In this document: piece by piece, positions 31,611 through 59,550 of the stretch
How the letters are laid out: the number at the start of each line of letters is the position of its first letter
How positions within the stretch are numbered: position 1 is the stretch's first letter
Source of the DNA: Acidobacteriota bacterium
GTDB taxonomy: Bacteria; Acidobacteriota; Holophagae; Acanthopleuribacterales; Acanthopleuribacteraceae
Direction of reading: 5' to 3'
NCBI GenBank assembly: GCA_020439745.1
Contig: JAGQSC010000027.1
Location: forward strand, 1-64,000
Length of the DNA: 64,000 nt
The notes under the pieces: model-generated
Databases searched by the model: none
What the model was told of the DNA's origin: nothing
Seen by the model: the letters and a program-made list of their open reading frames with translations, nothing else
Made by a program: the position numbers and the translations under genes

Positions 31611-33755
31611 ATGCGCTTCCGATTTGACGACTTCGAATTTGACTCAGAAGAGAGCCGACTCACGGTCAATGGCGAGGACGTGAATCTGCGTCCCCAAGTG
31701 GCACAAGTACTCCATGAGCTCCTTAACACCTATCCAAAAACGCTTACCAAGGATCAGTTGACCGAATCGGTCTGGTCCGACACTTTTGTTAGCGACCAGA
31801 GCATTGCCCTGTGTGTGAGCGAGTTGCGCAAGGCGTTGGGCGACGATACCCGTAACCCACGGTTTATTCGAACGGTACCTAAACGCGGATACCAATGGAT
31901 TTTCCCCCTTGATGAACGTTCACAAACCGATGGCCAGATCCAGATCATTGTGCCTCGACCCAAGCGGTCTCGAGCTGTTCCTTGGCCAGCGATCGTCGCG
32001 CTTGGTCTATTGTTCATCGTGATTGGGTCCTTTCTGCCACGAGACAAGCACAAACCTGAGACGCCCAAGCCCACTTTTGCCACGGTGGAAGGGCGGGTGG
32101 TATTGCTTCCGTTTGAAAACAAGACCGGGGAAACCGATTTGGATTGGCTCAGTTACGGCTTATCGGATATGGTTCGAGGTACGCTTGAAACATCGCCGGT
32201 ACTTCACACCGTGCCCTTGACCGACGTGCAATCGGCGCAGCAACTCGAGAACCTGCCTGACCTCAATGCTACAAACATCGAATACACCACTTGGTGCCAG
32301 TATTTTCGCAGTCAATATCTAGTCCGTACTCAGGTAACGCGTGTTTCAGGTGAGTTCCGGTTTGATTGCCAGATCTATGTGGCATCCGGCTCACAATCAA
32401 AAAGAGTGGTGCAGGCAGACACACTTTTGCAAGGTGGTGAACGACTTGCAGAAATGCTCCATGCCCGCTTTGCGCCCACCCAACCGATACGGGAGTTCAT
32501 CGATCAATACACCGATGATCCCTACCTCAATCTGACATTTGCGACAGGGTTGCACCGCAGTGCATTGGAAGGTCCGGCAGTCGGAACGCCTTACTTTGAA
32601 ACCTGTGTCAAAGAGCGACCTGATTTCGGTTGGGCTCGCTATTACCTGGCCAAGTGCTTACGCTTAACCGGGGAACGGGCACGTGCGGAGACGGAGTTAC
32701 AGGTACTCTTGGACCAGACCGAAGGCTCAGAATCGCTGATGAGGGCGCATGCTCTGGGTCTTCAATCGGTGTTGCGATTTGACGCCTTTGATATTGCGGG
32801 CTCGCGGCAACTGATACTGGAGTGCCAACCACTTTTTCAGAAAAATCAGGCGATGGTGGATTACGCCAAGACGGTGGGGCAATTGGGTTACTTGGATTAC
32901 GCCGAGGGTCAGTATCCCTCCGCAATTGAACGGCTCAAGAAATGCCTCGACCTTGTGCGCGAAGTGGGCGATCCATTGACGGAAGCGAATGTGCTCAACA
33001 ATCTTGGCATGGTGCACTCATCGGCAGACGACGAACAATCGGCGGTTAGCTATTTCGATGCAGCATTGGTCATTTTCAAGAAAGTGGGGAGCAAACCGGG
33101 AACTGCTTTGATGACAGGTAATATGGGCGCGATTTCGCTCGATTCCGGGTACATTGAGAAGGCACGCGCCTATCTAAATGAAGGACTTGACCTGTACCGC
33201 AGTTTGGGGGACCAACATGGCCTCTGCCGGCTGCTCTTGAACATGACGATTCTGAAAGCGACAGATCAGGACTTGGTAAGCGCGATCTCCTTTGGCCAGG
33301 AGGGTATGCTCTTAGCCCGCGAAATCGAAGTGGACTACATGGAAGGTCAGTTTGCATTTACCCTCATCCGACTTTTGGCGGATGCGAAACGACTCGATGA
33401 ATGTCAATCGTTAGGCTCTGAGGTCGCCCCGCTTATTGCTGCCATGAAATATGACGAAGTGACCGATCGGTTCCTTGCTGCGCGAGCCTACGGCTCGATG
33501 CGTGCGGGCGATCTCACGCGTGCCAAGTCATATTTGGAGCAGGCGAGTCCTTCTTTTCGTGAGAATCACTTTGTTGCTCTTTACACCAAGGCACTCATGT
33601 CTCTTGAAGAAGGCGACAAAGTGCGTGCTCTGGATTTCATGGACCAGACAATCGAGGCGGCGCGTACTGGTTGGAAGGATGTCTTCGGCCAGATACGAAA
33701 TGCCATTGAAAGGGACGAAGCCCTGCCGACAGTGAGTGTCGTGACCTACAACTAA
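31611..33755 (+). CDS. CadC-like membrane-bound winged-helix regulator with TPR sensor region
   Basis: 714 residues. Residues 1-100 are an OmpR/CadC-type winged helix (LTVNGEDVNLRPQVAQVL, then SDQSIALCVSELRKALGDD and FIRTVPKRGYQW). A single membrane helix lies at about 123-142. The outer part starts with a segment resembling TolB/FlgO-like domains (GRVVLLPFENKTGETDLDWL) and continues with about eight TPR-like repeats from residue 330 onward (for example EAQVLNNLGMVHSSADDE-like motifs around 33000). It has no kinase or receiver domain, so it should be a one-component regulator that senses outside and binds DNA inside. The neighbouring 2066-residue protein gene is a plausible target. Confidence 0.85.
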   Translation: MRFRFDDFEFDSEESRLTVNGEDVNLRPQVAQVLHELLNTYPKTLTKDQLTESVWSDTFVSDQSIALCVSELRKALGDDTRNPRFIRTVPKRGYQWIFPLDERSQTDGQIQIIVPRPKRSRAVPWPAIVALGLLFIVIGSFLPRDKHKPETPKPTFATVEGRVVLLPFENKTGETDLDWLSYGLSDMVRGTLETSPVLHTVPLTDVQSAQQLENLPDLNATNIEYTTWCQYFRSQYLVRTQVTRVSGEFRFDCQIYVASGSQSKRVVQADTLLQGGERLAEMLHARFAPTQPIREFIDQYTDDPYLNLTFATGLHRSALEGPAVGTPYFETCVKERPDFGWARYYLAKCLRLTGERARAETELQVLLDQTEGSESLMRAHALGLQSVLRFDAFDIAGSRQLILECQPLFQKNQAMVDYAKTVGQLGYLDYAEGQYPSAIERLKKCLDLVREVGDPLTEANVLNNLGMVHSSADDEQSAVSYFDAALVIFKKVGSKPGTALMTGNMGAISLDSGYIEKARAYLNEGLDLYRSLGDQHGLCRLLLNMTILKATDQDLVSAISFGQEGMLLAREIEVDYMEGQFAFTLIRLLADAKRLDECQSLGSEVAPLIAAMKYDEVTDRFLAARAYGSMRAGDLTRAKSYLEQASPSFRENHFVALYTKALMSLEEGDKVRALDFMDQTIEAARTGWKDVFGQIRNAIERDEALPTVSVVTYN

Positions 33756-33863: not shown

Positions 33864-36800
33864 ATGTACCGATTCATGGCATTCGTGATGCTGTTATGGA
33901 CTGCCTGTCACGCTGTAGGCCAATGTGGTTTTAATGGATGTGATGCGGTCACAGCGGCTGGCCTAAGAGGCGTGCTTTCGGATTGGCCAACTCACCTTGA
34001 CTGCAATGGCGACACCTCCAGTGACATGCGGGACCTAGTGTGTTTGATGGATCAGGTACCCGGATTGAGTCCGCCTGTGTTGCAGCCCATTGGCGATCGA
34101 TTGGTGACATTTGACTACAACCTCCAGTTTACGGTTCAGGCTATGGATCCCAACGGCGATCTATTGACCTATGGGGTGGAAGGTCTGCCCACGGGTGCCA
34201 GTTTCAATCCGTCAACTCAGCTGTTTGATTTCGCGCCACTTGAGCAAGACCTTGGCGAGTACTTATTAGACTTCTGGGTGGATGACGGCTTTTATCGGGT
34301 CCATGAACAGGTACAAATCACCGTGAAGGGCCTGACGAAGCTGGTCTCTACCTCTCCTTTTCACCAGGAAGAATCGGTCGCTGTGACACGTGAGACCCGC
34401 ATTCAGTTTGATTACCCCATCGATCCTGCAAGTGTGACTGCTTCCAATGTCCAAGCCACGTTTGCCGCTACGTCGCTACCTAGCTGGCGCCACATATCTG
34501 ACGATAGACGGGTGGTCACACTTTTCTATACCGATCCACTGCCTGCCAGCGCATTAATCCGCGTTTCAGTGGATGGGGACACGTTGCTCGACAGTGAGGG
34601 GATCGCACCGGATCTGGATGGAGATGGCATACCGGGTGGCCTTTACGAGATCGATTTTGAGACGCTCTCCTTGACGCCGTTGACTGGCACTTCGGTAACA
34701 GGTCGTGTTTTTGCCTCAGAGCCTGCGCTTGGTGAGTCAGGGGGACCACCGCTTGATGTGCCTCTGGAAGGCGTCAAGATCACGATTGACGGGTTGGAAT
34801 CGACCCATTTCACCTACACAGATGCCTCGGGCAACTTCACACTTGAGCCCGTTCCTGCGGGTCGATTCTTTGTCCATATTGACGGGCATACCGTGATGAC
34901 CGCCGAAATAGGTGGTGTACCCACGCCCACAACCTTTCCGGGGGGTCCCTATTATCCCTTTGTAGGGAAGGCTTGGACGGGGCATGCGGGTTTGGATACG
35001 AATGTGGGAGATGTGCACCTTCCGTTGGTTTTGCCAGGAACATTGCAGTCTGTGAGTGAGACGCAGCCAACAACCATTCACTTCCCGCAAGCCGTTGTGG
35101 ATCTTCATCCCGAGTGGGCGGATGTATCCATAACGGTTCCGGCCAACTCGCTGTTTGCCAATGATGGAACCACAGGTGGCATGGTGGGGATTGCTCCGGT
35201 AGATCCCCAAAGATTGCCTGGACAATTGCCTCCGGATCTGAACCCCGCCATTGTGATCACGGTTCAAACCAACGGGCCTAGTAACTTCAGCACACCCGCA
35301 CCTGTTTGCTTTCCCAACCTTCCCGACCCTCAATCAGGCATGCTTGCGGGTCCGGGTACAGCCATGGCACTGCTGAGTTTCAACCATGACTCGGGCCGGT
35401 GGGACCATGTGGGTACAGCCACCGTCAATCAGGACGGAACCATGGTGTGCTCAGACGAAGGTGTGGGCATCACGGCGCCAGGATGGCACCTCTCGGTACC
35501 TTGTAGTCCAACCAAACTGCACAACCCCAAGTACCAGTGCCGGAAAGACTGCGCCTTGTCGATTGTGTGGGGCATCATTGACTGCGCTTTGAGTTTTATT
35601 CCGGGAAGCGGCATCCTTCGTTGTGCCCTGGGCATTGTGCTCTCAGCGGTCCAGATAGCCCGCGACTGCCTGAACGATCCGGCCTCTGCTGGCTGCGTGA
35701 TTTCAGCCATCGCCAATTTTCTGTCGATCCTATCTGCGGAATGTTTGGGGGCCATGGCACACAATATACCTGCGTTGGGACAGATACTCGCCTGTGGCGG
35801 GGGTGCAGCGGGTGCAATTGCCGCGTGTTCCTGTCTCGTCGACAAGGGTGGCGAACCTTGGCAGCCTCGAATTGATGCAGAGTTGGCCTTTTTCAGTGCT
35901 TACCACGACTATGCATTGGAGGTATTGGGGGACCCCGTATGGACCTCTCTGGACCCCAACGATACCGACCATTTTGTGTCGCGGGCCCAAACCACTGAAA
36001 TCCTGGAGACCATTTTCAGTGCCGCAACCAATGGCATCGATACCAGTGAAGCGGCGGCGATCTTGGCCCTTCCTCGGCCAAGCGATATTACCGCAGTAGA
36101 TGTTCAGGCATTGATCGACCGATTCAATTTGACGCTAGACCTTTGGGGTCAGGGCATCTTTACCCATGCGCAAGCGGGTACCATAGCGTTTATCGACCGC
36201 GACGCGTTGATGGCTGACCTCGATCAGATCGAAACCATGATTCAAGACTTGCAAGCGATGAGCATTGACGAATTCGACTTGACCGAGCCAGGCGAACAAT
36301 ATGCGGCCTTCGCCAATGAGGAATTGGATGATCCTGAAGAACTGGATCCCAAGGGCGTGTTTTACCGACTAAGCGCGCGCCCCTTAGAGGATGTGTTGAC
36401 GCCGCCTCCCAACTTTGGTCAGTTACAGAGCGGAGGGGCATCTGGAATCGTGACCTTGAGGCCCAAGACACCTTTTGACATGGCCTACTACGATCCGGTC
36501 CGCCAATCCTACAACCATCGTTTTATCTATTCGAATGCGAATGGCGTGGAAACACCGATGCCCGTCACCAGTTTGTATGCACTCCCAGAACTGGATGGCA
36601 GTGTGAGTGCCGAGGATTTGGATGGAGACCTGTTACACAATCTGGCCGAGTCAGTGGTAGGAACAGACCCCATGAACCCGGATACCGATGGTGACGGCAT
36701 CGAAGATGGCGTTGAAGTGGATTTTGGTTTGAACCCATTGGACGGGTTGCTCCTGAACCTGGGTGTCGTTTTTCAGGTCAACACGGTTGATGCACAAGAT

Positions 36801-39800
36801 GTGGATGTGGATGACCAGCACATAGTACTGTCGCACGGAACCTATGGCATCACTTTGTTCAACGCTTTTAATGGTATGGATCCACGCATCATGGCTCAGG
36901 TCAACACCCCCGGTCAGGCGTTGGATGCGGCGCTTGCCGGCGACCTGATTGCAGTGGCGGATGGTTCCTCGGGCGTCACATTGATCGACATAAGCGATCC
37001 AGCTGCGGCGGCGATTATCCAGTCCATCCCTTTAGGTGGGTCCGCTCAAGCCATAGATGCAATGCTGGACCTAGCCTATGTGGGCTTGGATGTGAACATG
37101 TTGGCCGTGGTCGATGTGCGCTCCGGTTCCGTGATAGGTCGATTGAATATGCCCTACCCGGTGGTGGATGTGGTTGCAGGAACGGAAGCTGTCTATGTGG
37201 CTCATGTGGACCGAATTTCGGTCGTGGATAAGTTGGGTGCCAGTCTTTTGTTCACCACGCCTGCCCTAGGGACACCTTCGATCACCCATCTCGCGCTTGG
37301 TAAAGGGACTCTGTTTGCCATGCACGGTAGCGGCTATGCCACGTTGGACCTGACCGACCCGATTATGCCTACCTTGGTGTCTAATGCGCACAGTGGCCAG
37401 TTCTGGCGTGACATGGCATTGAACGGAAGTGGCTTGGGTGTGGCTGGCGTGAACTCGCTGGGCGGCGGGGGTATTGAAGTCTACGATGTGAGTAATCCTG
37501 CCCAAACCATCACACCAGCGCAAGAGTCCTTTGTGTTTGCAGCCAGAGTGAGAGCCGTGGAAATCACTAACGGTCTCGCGTACTGTGCCAGTGACAGCGG
37601 CTTGCTGGTGGTGAATTACCTGGCCTACGACGCCATGGGCGTGGCACCCGTCATCGCTCTCGACGGTCCGCTCGCCAAAGGCGCATGGATGTTGGAGGAG
37701 GGGAGCGCTTCCTACATATCTGCTGATGTAATGGATGACGTTCAGGTGCGTCACGTGAAGTTTTATCGTGACGGGGAGCTTGTCCACACCGATGCGTCGT
37801 ATCCCTTCACCTATTCCTTTCAGGCGCCGCTGCTGAGCCAACAGGCGTCCATGGAGATTCAGGCCAAGGCCATTGATACTGGCGGCAACTCGGGATGGTC
37901 GGCCACGCAGTTGATCGACCTGACTGCGGACGTAACAGCCCCTCAAGTCATGAGTAATCTTCCGGTCATTGGACAGCGAACCGTGAACCTGATTTCAGCA
38001 TTCATGAGTGAGTCACTCAGTGCTGCAACTGTGAATCCTGCCTCTTTCCTGGTGGTGGAAGCTGGTCCCGATGGACTGTTTGATACCGGCGACGATGTGG
38101 TGGTTAACCCTTTCAAAGTCCAATTCGATTCCGGTGTCAACCGAGTGGATTTTGTGACCTCGGGCCCTTTGAGTGATGGCTCATACCGAGCCACGCTGAC
38201 CACAGCCATCACCGATCAAGTGGGCAATCCCTTGCCGGCGGATCATCGTTGGGTCTTCCGTGTGGCCGATGCCGTGTTTTGGATCGCGGGCAGCGGTGAC
38301 TTTCAGGCGGGACTCAATTGGAGTGACGGCATGGTTCCGGGCCCCAGTGACCACGTGATCATCGACGCGCCAGGAACACCTACCATCACTTTGGCCACCG
38401 CACCGGCACGAACCGTAGGTTCCATGGAAGTACACGATGCACTGGTACTGCAGGGCGGTGACCTAACGACTTCGGTTTTGGACATCTATGGATCAGTGGA
38501 CATTCAGAACGGCCGCATAAGCCAAGCCGAGCTCAACAACACGTTCGGTGGATCGTTGATTGTTGGGACCACGGGTGTTGGCAGCTATTCTGCCGTATTG
38601 AACAACGTCACATTAAACGGGGCGCTGAACAATTCCGGTCGCCAAACCAGTATTACGGGTTCATTTTTCTTGAATGGTGATATGTGGCTGTCCGGGACCG
38701 GCATGGTGATGAACGGCCCCTTGATTGATGGGACGGGTACCATCCATCTATCATCCACCTACATCACAACCAATATCGGGACGTACACCATCGGTGCGGG
38801 GATCAGTGTCGTAGGCCAGCAGGCGAACATGCAAGGGACACCGGTCAATTACGGCACGATCACTATGAATGGCGGCACCCAATGCACCATCTACAACCTG
38901 CAAAACCACAATCAGTTGACGGTACAGAACACGGCTTGCACCTTGAGTGGCGGTCAGAATCACGCCAATGTTCAGGCCCAAGATGCCGCGCTCACCCTGG
39001 CTGGAACGTTTGAGAACCTGGGCGACATGGACTTTGTCAACACGCATGTGCGAATGGGCATGAGCGGACCTTATCAACCCAGTCAACTGGGTAACTACAC
39101 GCGCAGTGGCACCACACGTATCGAGATACTCGGCCACATGGACGTAAATCCAGGCCTTTTGCTGGATGCGAATACAGGGAGTTGGGAACTCTCAGGGTCA
39201 GTGGACGCAGTGGTGTCGAACGGGTTCATTGAAACCCAAGATGGGGCGCAACTCATCTTGTTACAGATGCCCGACAATGATCCAGCCACCTTGCGCAACA
39301 TCGAATTGAGAACCGATATCACGCTTGGCTTCAAAACCATGCTCAAGTTTGATAGTGGCCTGACGCTGAACAATGCCACGATTACCGTGGCGGGTAATGT
39401 CGCGTACCTTCAAGGTGCTCGATTTGCCTGCGGTGCCGCAGGACTACAAACTGTCGACGGAGTGGGTCTGATTCAGGTGACCACTTCCGGTGGAAATGAC
39501 GTGTTCTACGGTAGTAGCTCCAACCAGATCCGGATTGGGCCCGGCATCACCGTGGTGGTAAATGGCGGAAACGTGGGCAGCTACACACACCTGATTAACC
39601 AAGGCCTGATAGAGAAAAACGGCGGTAGCGGAGAATTGGTGCTGCGCGGTGAGTACGGATTCACCAATGAAGGAACCATCAGACAAACCTTGGGGCCCAT
39701 GCGAGCCAAGGAACCGATCTCTAATTCAGGGTTGATAGATATCTTGGCAGGTCAAAACTTGGTGCTGGACAAGAACCTGACCTGTAACTCCAGCTCCACG

Positions 39801-40064
39801 CTTCAAACATCCATCGCCTCACTTTCGAGTTATGGTCGATTTACGGGACATGTCACTAATTCAGCCGTCACTTTGGACGGAACGCTTGCTATTCAACTGG
39901 AGGGCGGATACGTACCCAACCTTGGGGACACGTTTACGTTGATGACGGCCAGCTCCATCACTGGTAGCTTCGCTTCAATCACCCATGCATCTCTTGGCAA
40001 TGGCACCCAATTCCAGGTGACGGTCAATGCGGCTTCGGTGGTCTTGGAGGTGGTTCCCGAGTAA
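33864..40064 (+). CDS. Giant secreted multi-domain protein (Ig-like, TSP3-like, LVIVD, beta-helix)
   Basis: 2066 residues with a clear signal peptide (FMAFVMLLWTACHAVG). In order: a Cys-containing dockerin-like opening (about 20-60); a cadherin-like Ig module (70-150); an SbsA-type Ig-like module (156-272); a carboxypeptidase-regulatory-like module (277-346); a Cys-rich region with hydrophobic stretches (545-662); a TSP3-like calcium motif, DTDGDGIEDG (near 940); LVIVD-type beta-propeller repeats (about 960-1250); a second Ig-like module (1357-1469); then a long repetitive, Asn/Gly/Thr-rich part starting FWIAGSGDFQAGLNWSDG that looks like a right-handed beta-helix. No LPxTG, PEP-CTERM or type 9 sorting tail is evident. 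Likely an adhesin or surface-structure protein. GGAGGA precedes the ATG. Confidence 0.85.
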   Translation: MYRFMAFVMLLWTACHAVGQCGFNGCDAVTAAGLRGVLSDWPTHLDCNGDTSSDMRDLVCLMDQVPGLSPPVLQPIGDRLVTFDYNLQFTVQAMDPNGDLLTYGVEGLPTGASFNPSTQLFDFAPLEQDLGEYLLDFWVDDGFYRVHEQVQITVKGLTKLVSTSPFHQEESVAVTRETRIQFDYPIDPASVTASNVQATFAATSLPSWRHISDDRRVVTLFYTDPLPASALIRVSVDGDTLLDSEGIAPDLDGDGIPGGLYEIDFETLSLTPLTGTSVTGRVFASEPALGESGGPPLDVPLEGVKITIDGLESTHFTYTDASGNFTLEPVPAGRFFVHIDGHTVMTAEIGGVPTPTTFPGGPYYPFVGKAWTGHAGLDTNVGDVHLPLVLPGTLQSVSETQPTTIHFPQAVVDLHPEWADVSITVPANSLFANDGTTGGMVGIAPVDPQRLPGQLPPDLNPAIVITVQTNGPSNFSTPAPVCFPNLPDPQSGMLAGPGTAMALLSFNHDSGRWDHVGTATVNQDGTMVCSDEGVGITAPGWHLSVPCSPTKLHNPKYQCRKDCALSIVWGIIDCALSFIPGSGILRCALGIVLSAVQIARDCLNDPASAGCVISAIANFLSILSAECLGAMAHNIPALGQILACGGGAAGAIAACSCLVDKGGEPWQPRIDAELAFFSAYHDYALEVLGDPVWTSLDPNDTDHFVSRAQTTEILETIFSAATNGIDTSEAAAILALPRPSDITAVDVQALIDRFNLTLDLWGQGIFTHAQAGTIAFIDRDALMADLDQIETMIQDLQAMSIDEFDLTEPGEQYAAFANEELDDPEELDPKGVFYRLSARPLEDVLTPPPNFGQLQSGGASGIVTLRPKTPFDMAYYDPVRQSYNHRFIYSNANGVETPMPVTSLYALPELDGSVSAEDLDGDLLHNLAESVVGTDPMNPDTDGDGIEDGVEVDFGLNPLDGLLLNLGVVFQVNTVDAQDVDVDDQHIVLSHGTYGITLFNAFNGMDPRIMAQVNTPGQALDAALAGDLIAVADGSSGVTLIDISDPAAAAIIQSIPLGGSAQAIDAMLDLAYVGLDVNMLAVVDVRSGSVIGRLNMPYPVVDVVAGTEAVYVAHVDRISVVDKLGASLLFTTPALGTPSITHLALGKGTLFAMHGSGYATLDLTDPIMPTLVSNAHSGQFWRDMALNGSGLGVAGVNSLGGGGIEVYDVSNPAQTITPAQESFVFAARVRAVEITNGLAYCASDSGLLVVNYLAYDAMGVAPVIALDGPLAKGAWMLEEGSASYISADVMDDVQVRHVKFYRDGELVHTDASYPFTYSFQAPLLSQQASMEIQAKAIDTGGNSGWSATQLIDLTADVTAPQVMSNLPVIGQRTVNLISAFMSESLSAATVNPASFLVVEAGPDGLFDTGDDVVVNPFKVQFDSGVNRVDFVTSGPLSDGSYRATLTTAITDQVGNPLPADHRWVFRVADAVFWIAGSGDFQAGLNWSDGMVPGPSDHVIIDAPGTPTITLATAPARTVGSMEVHDALVLQGGDLTTSVLDIYGSVDIQNGRISQAELNNTFGGSLIVGTTGVGSYSAVLNNVTLNGALNNSGRQTSITGSFFLNGDMWLSGTGMVMNGPLIDGTGTIHLSSTYITTNIGTYTIGAGISVVGQQANMQGTPVNYGTITMNGGTQCTIYNLQNHNQLTVQNTACTLSGGQNHANVQAQDAALTLAGTFENLGDMDFVNTHVRMGMSGPYQPSQLGNYTRSGTTRIEILGHMDVNPGLLLDANTGSWELSGSVDAVVSNGFIETQDGAQLILLQMPDNDPATLRNIELRTDITLGFKTMLKFDSGLTLNNATITVAGNVAYLQGARFACGAAGLQTVDGVGLIQVTTSGGNDVFYGSSSNQIRIGPGITVVVNGGNVGSYTHLINQGLIEKNGGSGELVLRGEYGFTNEGTIRQTLGPMRAKEPISNSGLIDILAGQNLVLDKNLTCNSSSTLQTSIASLSSYGRFTGHVTNSAVTLDGTLAIQLEGGYVPNLGDTFTLMTASSITGSFASITHASLGNGTQFQVTVNAASVVLEVVPE

Positions 40065-52867: not shown

Positions 52868-53845
52868 TTAGGCCTGTCGCAGGGCGGTTGAAGATAGACC
52901 CTCGTAAGGATGGTGAGGTAGCCAATGCAATTGGGTTCGTCTGCTTGTTGCGTGTACCCAGAGCTGCGCATTGCTGGTCGCATCCATATCGGCTTCTCTC
53001 GGTACGACGTACAGATGGCGGATGCTCTTTATGAGTTTAGCGGCGTGCCACCAGCGGGGAAGGCTGGCCAGGCTGTCGGCTCCGATCACCAAGGAACGAT
53101 GACGTGGTGGGAGTTTAGGGAACCAACCACAGGTGGGGTTTGGTTGTTCCAGACCGAGAAAACCGGGAAAGGTCCAGGCCCCTAGTTCATGAGCGTGCTG
53201 CTGGCATTGGCGATAGTGTTTCCAAGCACACGTGTCGTCATCGTTGGCCTTGAAGGGGCTGCGATCGGGCACCACCACCAAATCACCGTTATGTGTCGTT
53301 GCCGCCAACTCAATGCAAGCACTGTGACCGGCATGCCACGGGTTAAACGTGCCTCCATAAATGGCCATTCGAGTGAGTTTGCGCGGTACGGACCAGGGCC
53401 GAATGGTCTGGATCGGTGACTTCTGGAAGATGGGCCAGAATCTGCCAACTGCATCGCAAAGAATGGACCCGTGGTCAAAAGCCAGTTCTTCGATTTCGGA
53501 AAGTGTGCGCCACTCAGCACTTGCAGCATCATCGCCAGCATAAATGGGCAGCACGTCCTTCAATACCGCGAGGTAAGGTTGACTGACCGTCCAGCCTCGG
53601 GGATCCCGGCCTTTTGCGCCTCGGAGTGTGAGTGGGACTAGATGCGACTCATGCAAGGTCAGTCCGGTCTCCTCGCGCAATTCACGTAAGGCCGCCTGGA
53701 TGGGTACTTCATGCGGATCGACAAATCCGCCCGGCAGCGCAAAATGGTGGCGAAAGGGATCTCTTGCTCTTTGAATGAGCAGAACACTGGTCTCGGCACC
53801 TGTGCCTGCCAGTACGACTGTGTCGACCGTTAGAGAGGGGAGCAT
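52868..53845 (-). CDS. Nudix hydrolase fused to NadD-like nucleotidyltransferase
   Basis: 325 residues. Residues 1-150 are a Nudix domain: the box has GGFVDPHE, then five residues, then AALRELREETGL, with all its conserved glycine, glutamate and arginine positions. Residues about 155-325 are a nicotinate-nucleotide adenylyltransferase-like domain: MAIYGGTFNPWHAGHSACIE contains the GTFxPxHxGH site, and GLSSTALRQA at the very end matches the ISSTxxR motif. It would make NAD+ precursor and hydrolyse ADP-ribose-type nucleotides. The known bifunctional enzyme has NadM then Nudix; here the order is reversed and the partner is NadD-like. The ATG directly follows the M20 gene stop. Confidence 0.85.
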   Translation of the reverse strand: MLPSLTVDTVVLAGTGAETSVLLIQRARDPFRHHFALPGGFVDPHEVPIQAALRELREETGLTLHESHLVPLTLRGAKGRDPRGWTVSQPYLAVLKDVLPIYAGDDAASAEWRTLSEIEELAFDHGSILCDAVGRFWPIFQKSPIQTIRPWSVPRKLTRMAIYGGTFNPWHAGHSACIELAATTHNGDLVVVPDRSPFKANDDDTCAWKHYRQCQQHAHELGAWTFPGFLGLEQPNPTCGWFPKLPPRHRSLVIGADSLASLPRWWHAAKLIKSIRHLYVVPREADMDATSNAQLWVHATSRRTQLHWLPHHPYEGLSSTALRQA

Positions 53846-55322: not shown

Positions 55323-56195
55323 TCAGCGTGAAAAGATGCCCCTGGCCACCATATCGCGGAGATGGTCGCGCAGCGCTTCTTCCCAGTGCCGCATGGGTTC
55401 GCCAGTCAATTGATTAAATCGACTGTTATCCAATACAGAAAACGCGGGTCGTTGAACCTTAGATTGGAAGTCGTATGCGGCGATGGGTTCCAGTTTGGCT
55501 GGTAGCCGCAGTTCATCAAAGATGACTCGGGCGAATTCGAACCAACTGGCACGCCCAGATTGCGTGATATGGAAAATGCCCTTGCCTTTGCTGGACAGTA
55601 ACAGGCCGATGGCGCGAGCCAAATCCAGGGTGTAGGTCGGTGCCACCCATTCGTCATTGACCACCGTCACCCGATCACGAGTACGGCCCAAATGCACCAT
55701 GGTCGTAACAAAATTCCCGCCCTTGGCTCGGGTTGGAACCGCGCCGTAAAGCCCACAGCTTCGAACGATGCTGGCATCCTTAGACCCATAGGCCTGAACC
55801 ATGTGTTCTCCAGCGAGTTTAGTGATTGCGTAGGTACTCAGCGGCGCAGGAAGGTCGGATTCGGTGTAGGGTTTCTTTGTGCGACCATCGAAAACATAAT
55901 CCGTGCTGAGATGACAGAGATGGATACGCCGATTCTTGCAAGCGATCGCCAGGTTTCGGGCACCGATGGCGTTCACTTCAAAAGCCTGTTGATAGTGATC
56001 CTCGCAGGCAGGCACGTTGTGATAAGCAGCGGTGTTGACGACATGTGTGGGCTTGACTGCCGCTAGTAACTTGTCGACCTCGTCAAAAGAGGTGATATCC
56101 AGGTCAGCGTGGGTGCAGGCGATTGGGTTTTCGATCTGTTGCATTAGGTCCGTGCCCAGCGCGCCATTCGCGCCAATGATCATCGTCTTCATCAT
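55323..56195 (-). CDS. rmlD: dTDP-4-dehydrorhamnose reductase (RmlD family)
   Basis: 290 residues, an NAD(P)-dependent short-chain reductase for the last step of dTDP-L-rhamnose synthesis. IIGANGALGTDLMQQIE binds the nucleotide, HVVNTAAYHNVPACEDH, LSTDYVFDGRTKKPYTESD and the YxxxK in STYAITKLAGEHMVQAYG define the site, and VNDEWVAPTYTLDLARAIG is the usual substrate segment. Two ATGs (56195 and 56192) overlap the cmk stop, so the gene is translationally coupled to cmk. rmlA and rmlB are not in the window, so the substrate is likely but not certain. Confidence 0.9.
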   Translation of the reverse strand: MMKTMIIGANGALGTDLMQQIENPIACTHADLDITSFDEVDKLLAAVKPTHVVNTAAYHNVPACEDHYQQAFEVNAIGARNLAIACKNRRIHLCHLSTDYVFDGRTKKPYTESDLPAPLSTYAITKLAGEHMVQAYGSKDASIVRSCGLYGAVPTRAKGGNFVTTMVHLGRTRDRVTVVNDEWVAPTYTLDLARAIGLLLSSKGKGIFHITQSGRASWFEFARVIFDELRLPAKLEPIAAYDFQSKVQRPAFSVLDNSRFNQLTGEPMRHWEEALRDHLRDMVARGIFSR

Positions 56196-56860
56196 AAATG
56201 CTCCAAAGATGCTAATCGTCTGTGGGCCTCGTGCAATGCCTCTTCAAGTACGCCTTTCGCGTCAAGCTCGTCTGTGTCCAGTTTCCAAGCATCGTCGGCG
56301 GGTATTAGGGGTGCCACTTCTCGGGTCATGTCTTTCGAGTCTCTAGCTTGCTGTTCCACGAGGACTTGTTGGTATGGAACAGGCGACTGTTCTCCGCCCA
56401 GTTCCAGCCATCGTCTCCTGGCACGGGCCTCTGGCGAAGCGGTCAGGTAGATCTTCAAGAACGCGTTGGGGAACACCACCGTACCGATGTCGCGTCCGTC
56501 AAGCACACAAGGTTTCTTTATCGCGAAACGCCGCATCATGGCCGTCAAATGGTTACGGATCGTGGCAACAGACGAAACCGTGCTCACGTTTTGCGTGACT
56601 TCTTGACTGCGAATTTCTCGGCTGATGTCGTCCCCGTTGAGGCGGAAATTCGCACCTTCGACGTCGATAAAGATGCCGTCCAACCAAGCCTGATCGCTCA
56701 AAAGCTCAGGCGTATCGCCATCTTTCAACCAAGCCCATGTAATGCATCGGTACAACCCTCCAGTATCAAGGTATTGCCAGCGCAGTGCAGCCGCTAGTGA
56801 TCGGGCTAGTGTGGATTTTCCGACACCACTGGGCCCGTCGATGGCGATGACCTTGATCAT
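56192..56860 (-). CDS. cmk: Cytidylate kinase
   Basis: 222 residues. Phosphorylates CMP and dCMP. The P-loop is IDGPSGVGKSTLARSLA, the CMP-binding residues lie in YLDTGGLYRC (usually TGAMYR; here GGLYR), and the family signature CVLDGRDIGTVVFPNA is present, as are KIYLTASPEARARRRWLE and the DSKDMTREVAPLIPADDA segment. The GG in place of GA near the acceptor site is a minor variant. Overlaps the upstream pseudouridine synthase gene by four bases. Confidence 0.95.
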   Translation of the reverse strand: MIKVIAIDGPSGVGKSTLARSLAAALRWQYLDTGGLYRCITWAWLKDGDTPELLSDQAWLDGIFIDVEGANFRLNGDDISREIRSQEVTQNVSTVSSVATIRNHLTAMMRRFAIKKPCVLDGRDIGTVVFPNAFLKIYLTASPEARARRRWLELGGEQSPVPYQQVLVEQQARDSKDMTREVAPLIPADDAWKLDTDELDAKGVLEEALHEAHRRLASLEHL

Positions 56861-58257
56861 CGCCCACCCTTACCGCCCGACTTTTTAGAAGGACCATCGG
56901 TTCTTCTAGGTGATCGGGACCGGCTTTCCTGTGAGCTTCTGGTTTTTGGTCGATCGTCCCGTGACTTGGGCCGGTCATCACGGCGAGGCCGATCATCTCG
57001 AGACCTGGGCCGGTCATCACGCCGAGGTCGATCATCACGCGACCTGGGTCGGTCATCACGGCGAGGCCGATCATCGCGTGACCTGGGCCTGTCATCACGG
57101 CGAGTTTGATCATCGCGTGACCTGGGTCGGTCATCACGGCGAGGTCGATCATCGCGTGACCTGGGTCGGTCATCACGGCGAGGTTGATCATCGCGTGACC
57201 GGGTTCGGTCATCGCGCCGAGGCCGATCATCGCGTGACCGGGTTCGGTCATCGCGGCGAGGTTGATCGTCCCGTGACCTGGGTCGGTCATCGCGGCGAGG
57301 TTGATCATCGCGTGACCTGGGTCGGTCATCGCGGCGAGGCCGATCATCGCGTGATCTGGGTCGGTCATCACGACGGGGTCGATCATCCCAGGATCTAGGT
57401 CGATCATCACGTGCTTCCCTGGTTCCTCTGGAACTGGGTCGATCGTCTCGCCGTCGCGTTCGATCATAGCTCCGGGCAGGCTTGGGGAAGCGAATCGGGA
57501 CTCCCGCCTTTTTGAGTTCGGCTAGGCCATCGGCTGGCGATCCATACTCGCCCTTTTTCAACGCTGCTACTTCGTCTTCCGACAAGTGCCTGAAGTGTCC
57601 GGGTTCCAACTCGCCTAGCTCAATGCCGGCAAATTCAATGCGTTTGATTTTCGAAACCGGATGCCCGATATGTTCAAAGATCTTGCGCAAATGGTGTTTC
57701 TTGCCTTCGTACAGGACCACGCGAAGCCATGCGTTTTTTGGGGTATCGAAGAGCTGAATCTGACATCCCGAATAACGTACGCCGTCGATGGTGATACCTC
57801 TGGAGAGTCGCGCGATATGGGTGGCTGTGGGGATGCCCGAAACCTTGACCAGGTAGGTCTTGTGACAGCGTGATCGGGGTGAAATGAGTTTGTTCATCAA
57901 ATCGCCATCATTGGTGAGTAATAAGGCACCTTCTGATTGGAAGTCCAGCCGGCCCACGGGGTAAATACGACCTTTGACCCCTTTGATAAGGTCGGTAACT
58001 ACCGGTCTGGCTTCGGGGTCTGAAACACTGGATACGACCCCTTTTGGTTTGTACAACAACAAATATACATTGTGGCTGGGTAATGTGATGCGTTTGCCAT
58101 CGACCTTGATGTGGTCATTTTCGACGTCAGCTTTGGTGCCGAGTTCGGTCACGACTGTGCCGTTCACGGTGACGCGACCTTCCTCGATTAATTGTTCAGC
58201 CGCACGGCGGGATGCCACGCCTGCTTTGGCCAGTATCTTTTGTAATCTATCTTCCAC
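56857..58257 (-). CDS. RluB/RsuA-family pseudouridine synthase with long Arg/Asp repeat tail
   Basis: 466 residues. The S4 RNA-binding domain (RLQKILAKAGVASRRAAEQL, then GRVTVNGTVV) is followed by the catalytic domain with YPVGRLDFQSEGALLLTNDG, whose Asp is the nucleophile, and LRKIFEHIGHPVSKIKRIEF. The folded part ends near residue 240; the 23S rRNA-type enzymes RluB/RluE fit best. The rest is an extra tail: residues 283-438 are twelve copies of a 13-residue unit of the type RDDRPRSRDDRPR, then a basic Ser/Gly-rich end. The tail is highly charged and surely disordered. The stop overlaps the cmk start. Confidence 0.9.
   Translation of the reverse strand: MEDRLQKILAKAGVASRRAAEQLIEEGRVTVNGTVVTELGTKADVENDHIKVDGKRITLPSHNVYLLLYKPKGVVSSVSDPEARPVVTDLIKGVKGRIYPVGRLDFQSEGALLLTNDGDLMNKLISPRSRCHKTYLVKVSGIPTATHIARLSRGITIDGVRYSGCQIQLFDTPKNAWLRVVLYEGKKHHLRKIFEHIGHPVSKIKRIEFAGIELGELEPGHFRHLSEDEVAALKKGEYGSPADGLAELKKAGVPIRFPKPARSYDRTRRRDDRPSSRGTREARDDRPRSWDDRPRRDDRPRSRDDRPRRDDRPRSRDDQPRRDDRPRSRDDQPRRDDRTRSRDDRPRRDDRTRSRDDQPRRDDRPRSRDDRPRRDDRPRSRDDQTRRDDRPRSRDDRPRRDDRPRSRDDRPRRDDRPRSRDDRPRRDDRPKSRDDRPKTRSSQESRSRSPRRTDGPSKKSGGKGGR
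56944..57411 (-). repeat. Twelve-copy 39-bp tandem repeat within the pseudouridine synthase gene
   Basis: The gene tail contains twelve in-frame copies of a 39-bp unit, each encoding a 13-residue Arg/Asp/Pro/Ser module. Copies differ at only a few positions (R to Q, P to T, R to K, S to W) and many silent sites, so the array is old enough to diverge but young enough to be near-identical. Because the period is a multiple of three, expansions and contractions keep the frame. The array makes long open frames on other frames and strands which are not genes. Confidence 0.92.
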
Positions 58258-58260
58258 GGC

Positions 58261-59550
58261 TTAACCTTCTTTTATTTGTTGTCCAAGTGACGTCCAGAAT
58301 TCGGAATCCGCCAGCAGCAACTGGGCTGCGGCCTGTTGCGCGTTTTTCTTGGAGGTACCCCATGCTTCGGCTCGCACTTCATCGAGAATCTCGACACCCA
58401 TCAAATATCTTCGTTCATGGGCTGGGCCAGATTCGTCTATGAGCCTGTATTGCGGTACCTGATACCCCATCCCTTGTAGTCGTTCTTGTAATTCAGTCTT
58501 GAAGTCTTGTTTGCGTTTTAGAACCAATTTTTGCGCATGTATCTCAGCGTGAAACAGCCGATCAATGAAATCAGATGTTGCTTCCATGCCGCCGTCTAAG
58601 GTCATCGCCGCCATCACGGCTTCCATGGTGTCTGCCAAGATTGAGTCCTTGCTGGTTCCTTTGGTTTTTCGTTCGCCGACGCTCAACTTCAAGTGTTTGC
58701 CCAATTCCAGTTGTTTGGCTTTGTCAGCAAGCATGCGGGTTGAGACGATGGCTGATTTCTGTTTGGAGAGATCCCCCTCACGGGTGTGTGGATGGGCGAC
58801 GAACAACTTGCGAGCCACCAGGTAACCCAGGATGGAATCACCCAGAAACTCGAGTCTCTCGTTGTGAGGCAAGCTGTTTTCGTGTCCATATGATGCGTGG
58901 GAAAGCGCTTGCTCCAATAGTTCTGGCCGCTTGAATTGGTAACCTAGACGTGCTTCGAGGTGGCTCAAGGACGACACTCCAAAAGGGCCATATTCTACGC
59001 GGTTTTCAACCTTCCCGTCTATCGATGTTTTTTTGTCGAGCCACGCCAGGCATTGATGGATATCGTGGAACAGATGCACACTCGATAGATCCCAGGTAAC
59101 GTGGCCTTGCTGCTTTTGGAACATCAACCATTGGTAGAGAAACTCCCACTGACTCCCCAGTAACAGCATGTCTCTTGCTGGAATGATACCCTTGTTCATG
59201 CTGGCAAACACGTCCATGACTTCAAACAGAGTGCCTATGCCTCCAGGACCGGCGATGTAGATCTCGCCCAAGTTGATTAGAATACGTTGCCTGGCGTGGA
59301 GATCATTCACTGTTAAGATTTCGTCGGCATTTGGGCTGTGTTGGCGACCCGGAACGTCGAGTCGGATTCCTGTGGTTAATCCACCCGCCCGTTTAGCGCC
59401 GCGAAGCACGGCATCCATGAGTCCTGGCCCACCACCGTTGATTACATGATGGCCACGAGTCGCGAGAGCCTCGCCCAAAGATTCCATCAGTCGAGCTTCC
59501 TCATGGGTTCCCGAGGAGTTGCTACAGAAGATGACGACGTTCATAGTCAA
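58261..59550 (-). CDS. LOG-family phosphoribohydrolase-like domain fused to ribonuclease III
   Basis: 429 residues in one continuous frame. Residues 1-180 are a Rossmann-like LOG domain: VIFCSNSSGTHEEAR, HHVINGGGPGLMDAVLRGA, the LHARQRILI arginine and the GPGGIGTLFEVMD motif. Residues 195-415 are complete RNase III: the signature HNERLEFLGDSIL (E231, D238), SILADTMEAVMAAMTLDGG (D307, E310), and a dsRNA-binding domain from about 347 with WGTSKKNAQQAAAQLLL. All four metal-binding residues of RNase III are present. I see no internal start with a ribosome site that would give separate RNase III. It lies between the HD gene (four-base overlap) and the pseudouridine synthase. Confidence 0.88.
   Translation of the reverse strand: MTMNVVIFCSNSSGTHEEARLMESLGEALATRGHHVINGGGPGLMDAVLRGAKRAGGLTTGIRLDVPGRQHSPNADEILTVNDLHARQRILINLGEIYIAGPGGIGTLFEVMDVFASMNKGIIPARDMLLLGSQWEFLYQWLMFQKQQGHVTWDLSSVHLFHDIHQCLAWLDKKTSIDGKVENRVEYGPFGVSSLSHLEARLGYQFKRPELLEQALSHASYGHENSLPHNERLEFLGDSILGYLVARKLFVAHPHTREGDLSKQKSAIVSTRMLADKAKQLELGKHLKLSVGERKTKGTSKDSILADTMEAVMAAMTLDGGMEATSDFIDRLFHAEIHAQKLVLKRKQDFKTELQERLQGMGYQVPQYRLIDESGPAHERRYLMGVEILDEVRAEAWGTSKKNAQQAAAQLLLADSEFWTSLGQQIKEG

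Follow-up and report, generated by a model that had tools for sequence, protein, structure and literature searches.

The only RsuA/RluB-type pseudouridine synthase of this Acanthopleuribacteraceae genome ends in a long Arg/Asp-rich tail that is real, in frame, predicted to be disordered, lineage-specific in sequence and constant in physical character. On balance, and with moderate confidence, we read this tail as a selected, disordered, Arg-rich mixed-charge segment of tunable length that would serve as a weakly cationic tether to RNA and pre-ribosomes. The tail is an extreme, selected case of a recurrent and little-studied feature of the RsuA/RluB-type family.

The synthase gene and its neighbours are described in Table 1; all positions refer to the window, that is, the whole 64,000-nucleotide stretch of DNA that was analysed. 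The enzyme part corresponds to the first ~235 residues, in which an S4 domain precedes a PseudoU_synth_2 domain, both over the Pfam cut-off, and the TIGR00093 score was 149.6 bits against a curated cut-off of 109.3. Residues G102, R103, L104, D105 and Y135 could be aligned to RluB and were invariant in 10 aligned sequences. The best PDB matches were RluB, RluF and RsuA, and the S4 plus catalytic domain arrangement and the GRLD motif are common to the synthase and these three Escherichia coli enzymes. No further RsuA-type match was found in the genome; a weak hit at C56 belongs to the RluA family.

Table 1. Position of the synthase gene, its domains, its tail and the adjacent genes in the window.
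Feature	Position	Strand	Evidence or remarks
RsuA/RluB-type pseudouridine synthase gene	56857..58257	minus	GTG start, 466 aa; Pfam S4 and PseudoU_synth_2 over cut-off, TIGR00093
S4 RNA-binding domain, aa 4-45	58123..58248	minus	PF01479, E=2.3e-17
Catalytic domain, aa 65-196	57670..58065	minus	PF00849, E=3.8e-17
Catalytic Asp105 in GRLD	57943-57945	minus	Aligned with RluB GRLD; invariant in 10 aligned sequences
Disordered mixed-charge tail, aa 254-466	56860..57498	minus	pLDDT ~42, without secondary structure; composition
39-bp tandem array, 11.9 copies, unit DDRPRRDDRPRSR	56948..57411	minus	TRF
cmk (cytidylate kinase)	56192..56860	minus	TIGR00017, 198.2 bits vs cut-off 135.55
rnc (RNase III fused to LOG-type domain), directly upstream of synthase	58261..59550	minus	TIGR02191, 224.2 bits vs cut-off 166.25

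The equivalog models of the individual E. coli enzymes all scored far below cut-off, with 127.3 bits against 290 for RluB (23S U2605; NF007976), 130.9 against 318 for RluF (23S U2604; NF007784) and 114.4 against 275 for RsuA (16S U516; NF008097). Arg130 aligns with Glu135 of RluB, which is described as a residue of the bulge-binding loop (PMC3919597), and the loop SPRSRCHKTYLV of the synthase resembles the RsuA loop SPRHHCEKTYLV. Because all specificity models remained below their cut-offs and Arg130 replaces Glu135 of RluB, the target nucleotide was left unassigned.

The gene lies between rnc and cmk, in the order rnc-rluB-cmk, and its stop codon shares 4 bases with the cmk start codon (ATGA). 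All six other family genomes have the RNase III part upstream of the synthase, and four of the six have cmk on its downstream side; in G005 the contig ends there, and G004 gave no match in the stretch covered. The upstream gene (58261-59550, minus strand) is itself a fusion, in which a LOG-type (lysine-decarboxylase-like) domain is followed by RNase III within one 429-aa ORF. It is matched end to end in the same-genus genome G001 (aa 3-424), while the five other family genomes match its RNase III part only. Other multidomain proteins are encoded elsewhere in the window. In the single ORF at 52868-53845 (minus strand), a NUDIX domain at aa 7-128 is joined to a cytidylyltransferase-like one at aa 162-324, possibly as a NUDIX-NadD fusion. 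The 2066-aa protein encoded at 33864-40064 (plus strand) bears bacterial Ig-like domains and a weak carboxypeptidase-regulatory-like match, and is probably secreted. The ORF at 31611-33755 (plus strand) fuses TPR repeats to a DNA-binding Trans_reg_C domain.

In the original prediction, twelve 39-bp repeats were said to encode a disordered Arg/Asp-rich tail about as long as the catalytic domain, and each of these statements agrees with the present results. TRF identified a period of 39 with 11.9 copies at 56948-57411 (88% matches, score 641), together with a weaker 21-bp sub-period. The coding strand, which had not been given, is the minus strand, and the array lies inside the synthase gene (58257-56857). 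Residues 291-433 (56959-57387) are made up of eleven in-register units of 13 amino acids, with partial units on both flanks; each unit consists of two half-units, DDRPRR and DDRPRSR, and the consensus DDRPRRDDRPRSR shows occasional Q, T and K replacements among the copies. Exact repeats in the array reach 38 bases, versus at most 12 in 200 shuffles. A search of the genome for another copy of this repeat protein, with E values up to 10, returned only the protein itself. The AlphaFold2 model (31 sequences) has a pLDDT of ~90 in the core and of ~42 in the tail, where no secondary structure is predicted from aa 254 onwards; this low-confidence chain (aa 254-466) has ~213 aa, compared with ~170 aa for the catalytic domain. 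E. coli RluB and RluF also have a C-terminal end that is described as predicted or seen to be disordered (PMC3919597), but it is short, that of RluB having 40 aa versus the ~213 aa, repeat-built, of the synthase studied here.

A long C-terminal tail is present in all seven genomes of the family, which is the one to which Acanthopleuribacter pedis belongs; the longest tail has 386 aa and the shortest, truncated where its contig ends, 136 aa. Their repeat units are not the same, with 39 bp in the present genome, 14.2 copies of 42 bp in A. pedis, 5.0 copies of 45 bp in G005 and 27/51 bp in G004. The repeat finder detected no repeat in the tail of G001, and the tails of G002 and G003 are without a tandem unit evident by eye. 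The source genome and G001 are 82% identical in the enzyme core; past the first 25 residues, their tails are 36.5% identical, versus 35 +/- 3% for shuffled tails. The alignment score of the two tails (193, versus 144 +/- 16 after shuffling) indicates some residual similarity beyond composition. Since the repeats differ and the identity to the G001 tail is near the shuffled level, the inherited part of the tail is mostly its composition and charge pattern. In 7/7 genomes the tail is Arg-rich and poor in hydrophobic residues, with a net charge per residue (NCPR) of +0.12 to +0.24 and a charged fraction (FCR) of 0.38-0.67. The tail is not a general habit of pseudouridine synthases in these genomes, because 37 TruB and RluA-family proteins from them have ordinary ends: a basic end was seen in 0/7 TruB and in 0/30 RluA-family proteins, the latter being the 30 for which a locus was given among 42 places found by the RluA search, the synthase excluded. 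The R+K content of the last 60 aa was 0.07-0.18 in these controls versus 0.28-0.40 in the RsuA/RluB-type synthase of all seven genomes.

Outside the family, a C-terminal extension of at least 100 aa was found in 6 of 78 named loci, in 0/30 loci of the phylum and in 0/23 loci of the class, and the many relatives without a long tail are counted against a tether. In f2, a family equated with Holophagaceae by its likeness to named loci, 7 of 15 loci have an N-terminal low-complexity basic extension of at least 80 aa, as counted from the first in-frame start codon. Among 23 records of a plasmid collection, which were picked by hand and not at random and are in part chromosome-scale or chromids, nine have a long basic low-complexity extension (three Bacteroidota, one Nonomuraea and five Paracoccus), one is intermediate (Pseudoalteromonas) and 13 are without, several of these 13 being maybe plasmid-borne paralogs. 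Five of the nine extended records, including Bacteroides and Nonomuraea, were given to the repeat finder, and all five contained tandem arrays. These synthases of Bacteroides, Parabacteroides, Phocaeicola, Nonomuraea and Paracoccus belong to the same enzyme family and share an Arg-rich, mixed-charge, low-complexity repeat extension. It is C-terminal in the five Paracoccus records and N-terminal in Bacteroides, Phocaeicola, Parabacteroides and Nonomuraea, unlike the C-terminal tail described here, and the units of the other phyla differ from DDRPRRDDRPRSR, being for example EGGDRPYRPRFN-like or REDGERKPFAR. Tails of a comparable, repeat-built kind are thus borne by this enzyme in Bacteroidota, Actinomycetota and Alphaproteobacteria, some of them N-terminal and others C-terminal. 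The view that such a tail is unlike any usual bacterial rRNA modifying enzyme is therefore not supported, as the same enzyme bears one in 7/7 family genomes and in members of three other phyla. No paper on repeat-built tails of these enzymes was found by title or abstract opening, in a literature search outside of which most subscription papers fell.

In relatives, the length of such tails changes by whole units. Two Paracoccus versutus strains, with cores 98.9% identical, are one 33-bp in-frame unit apart, and P. ferrooxidans differs from one P. versutus strain by 33 and 66 bp. Together with G001, the same-genus genome without a repeat, P. versutus is cited here for length change in relatives. 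The in-frame slippage proposed originally is in this way borne out in relatives, though not in this species itself.

Of the distinct changes among the 11 in-register copies, 15 are silent and 4 replacing, while a replacing fraction of 0.67-0.72 would be expected (P between 7e-6 and 5e-5, according to the transition rate assumed), and the pairwise dN/dS between copies is 0.085 in the coding frame. Because of this excess of silent changes and low dN/dS, the tail protein is under purifying selection, and the copies have diverged under it. The 33-aa units of P. ferrooxidans, a separate replicate, gave 11 silent and 4 replacing changes (P 2e-4). The arrays of A. pedis and G005 alone do not show selection: the 13 in-register units of A. 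pedis have 4 silent and 3 replacing changes (P 0.10), or 8 and 19 when one degenerate unit is included to give 14 (P 0.49), and the few changes among the G005 units are 2 silent and 0 replacing (P 0.075).

The tail could instead be a tolerated passenger, a permissive protein end in which tandem slippage makes repeats and nothing is gained, its composition remaining constant only through recopying of an arginine-rich seed sequence. Unit sequence and length do vary among genera, with no repeat in G001, the A. pedis array is without clear selection, many relatives lack the tail, and poor conservation has been ascribed to the RluB tail of E. coli (PMC3919597). However, such a passenger would not be expected to show the strong silent bias among copies found here and in P. 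ferrooxidans, to be kept throughout the family, or to be missing from 37 other pseudouridine synthases of the same genomes; in addition, the tails without evident repeats (G001, G002 and G003) share the net charge and the charge mixing. We therefore regard this explanation as unlikely, although it is the most probable of the alternatives.

The composition of the tail (R 0.38, D 0.25, NCPR +0.14, R/(R+K) 0.94) stands out in the window: in a comparison with its open frames of at least 200 aa (46 examined), the best 100-aa charged fraction is 0.75 in the synthase and 0.43 in the next protein. Aromatic or aliphatic residues (FWYILVM) make up 1% of the tail. The charges are well mixed, with a kappa of 0.042 for the tail and 0.024 for the array, compared with 0.046 for (D4R4)3 and 0.81 for (D16R16)3, so that the segregated charge blocks of a homotypically phase-separating, blocky polyampholyte were not found. 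In 7/7 family genomes the kappa of the tail is under the mean of 40 shuffles each, shuffles being an imperfect control for repeat arrays. Being composed mainly of R and D in a mixed pattern, with a net charge between ~0 and +0.2, the tail has the features of an Arg-enriched mixed-charge domain. SNRNP70 and NELFE are described as similar in this respect, with R and D as the main residues, mixed, and a net charge of ~+0.1 to +0.2 (PMC9324279); the tail studied here differs from them in being bacterial, made of a tandem 13-residue unit and placed on an rRNA modification enzyme.

These properties bear on a possible role as a condensate domain, by which the tail would bring the enzyme into, or form, an RNA-rich condensate through complex coacervation with rRNA, giving a nucleolus-like modification hub. 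The NCPR and the arginine share of the tail are within the range of R/D domains that enter condensates of human cells, and R/D domains with a net charge up to ~+0.2 are reported to be better incorporated into nuclear condensates (PMC9324279). The pseudouridine synthase RPUSD4 has been described as a component of mitochondrial RNA granules (PMC5377769), and Rho of Bacteroides thetaiotaomicron, a conserved bacterial RNA enzyme, is reported to condense with RNA via a charged disordered region (PMC13269538). That region differs from the present tail in having a Lys/Glu-rich subdomain and conserved motifs controlling condensation, as described in the same report, whereas the tail consists of Arg/Asp repeats with units not conserved between genera. 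Against this role stand the near absence of aromatic and aliphatic residues and the thorough mixing of charges, which is close to that of (D4R4)3; of the peptides described in PMC9324279, D12R12 is reported to phase-separate, and (DR)12 and (D4R4)3 are reported not to. A condensate function is accordingly judged improbable. Given such well-mixed charges, the idea that alternating blocks drive phase separation by themselves is the weaker element of the original reading, and the tail on its own is not predicted to phase-separate. Its joining of an RNA-driven condensate is possible, since R/D domains of up to ~+0.2 enter nuclear condensates and the Bacteroides Rho offers a case in bacteria.

It is very improbable that the repeat works as DNA or mRNA, through structure, through antisense or alternative-frame ORFs, or by controlling the start of the overlapping cmk gene. 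The array is indeed crossed by open frames of 233 aa (minus strand, other frame) and 162 aa (plus strand), and the synthase stop overlaps the cmk start. However, neither of these extra ORFs has a Pfam match, and pN/pS is 2.0-2.4 in the two other sense frames and 1.6-1.9 in two antisense frames; in the third antisense frame it is 0.23, a low value that would follow if this frame shares its wobble positions with the coding frame. Alternative-frame and antisense ORFs were ruled out by these silent/replacing ratios and the lack of family matches, and an RNA-structure function because the array mRNA was no more stable than versions with shuffled synonymous codons, of which 34 in 200 were as stable (z -0.93). 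Furthermore, the same place in other family members is occupied by unrelated repeat DNA or none.

An equally remote explanation is an assembly artefact, by a wrong copy number or a mis-joined array: although the source genome is a draft of 65 contigs and the G005 contig stops inside its own array, the copies here are 88% alike with an intact reading frame, similar tails occur in other genomes, including the single-contig G003 and complete Paracoccus records, and collapse is unlikely, as no exact repeat exceeds 38 bp, a length below that of the k-mers commonly used with short reads. In G005, an A. pedis relative, the contig ends within a 45-bp array of 5 copies, 98% alike (L038:1-226), which is likely an assembly break at the repeat.

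Returning to the tether, RNA binding and ribosome tethering by the tail are plausible, and a loose electrostatic role is what we infer. Many weak Arg-phosphate contacts would lengthen the dwell time of the enzyme on nascent rRNA or ribosome-assembly intermediates, while the interspersed Asp residues would keep the chain soluble, extended and reversible, and not tightly bound. In-frame gain or loss of units would then tune tail length and leave the catalytic core unchanged. RsuA is reported to bind, modify and prefer an assembly intermediate, its S4-like domain being needed for recognition (PMC7356742). Counting against a tether, according to PMC3919597, E. coli RluB lacking its 40 C-terminal residues still formed the covalent complex with a stem-loop, and the disordered C-terminal end of RluF did not contribute to stem-loop binding. 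Since the shortened RluB still reacts and the RluF end adds no binding, such a tail would be dispensable for catalysis on a minimal substrate. Also against it, re-expression of RluB is reported to give no significant help to growth in an E. coli strain without 10 modification enzymes (PMC11194073).

A broader and more speculative proposal, which we put forward as rather doubtful, is that RsuA/RluB-type synthases in at least four phyla have repeatedly and independently built disordered, Arg-rich mixed-charge tails, at either end and by in-frame tandem duplication, and that these tails, convergent and tunable in length, serve to locate the enzyme in an rRNA-rich assembly zone. If this were true, such tails would be a bacterial counterpart of the nucleolar or speckle targeting of RNA-modifying enzymes. 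Single deletions of rRNA-modifying enzymes are often of minor effect, and the reason for their retention is an open question; the same physical tail, rebuilt from different DNA repeats, would offer a handle on why these enzymes persist. The Paracoccus strains and the Acanthopleuribacteraceae genera provide natural series of tail lengths, with which it could be asked whether a bacterial disordered region is selected for its physical character and not for its sequence.
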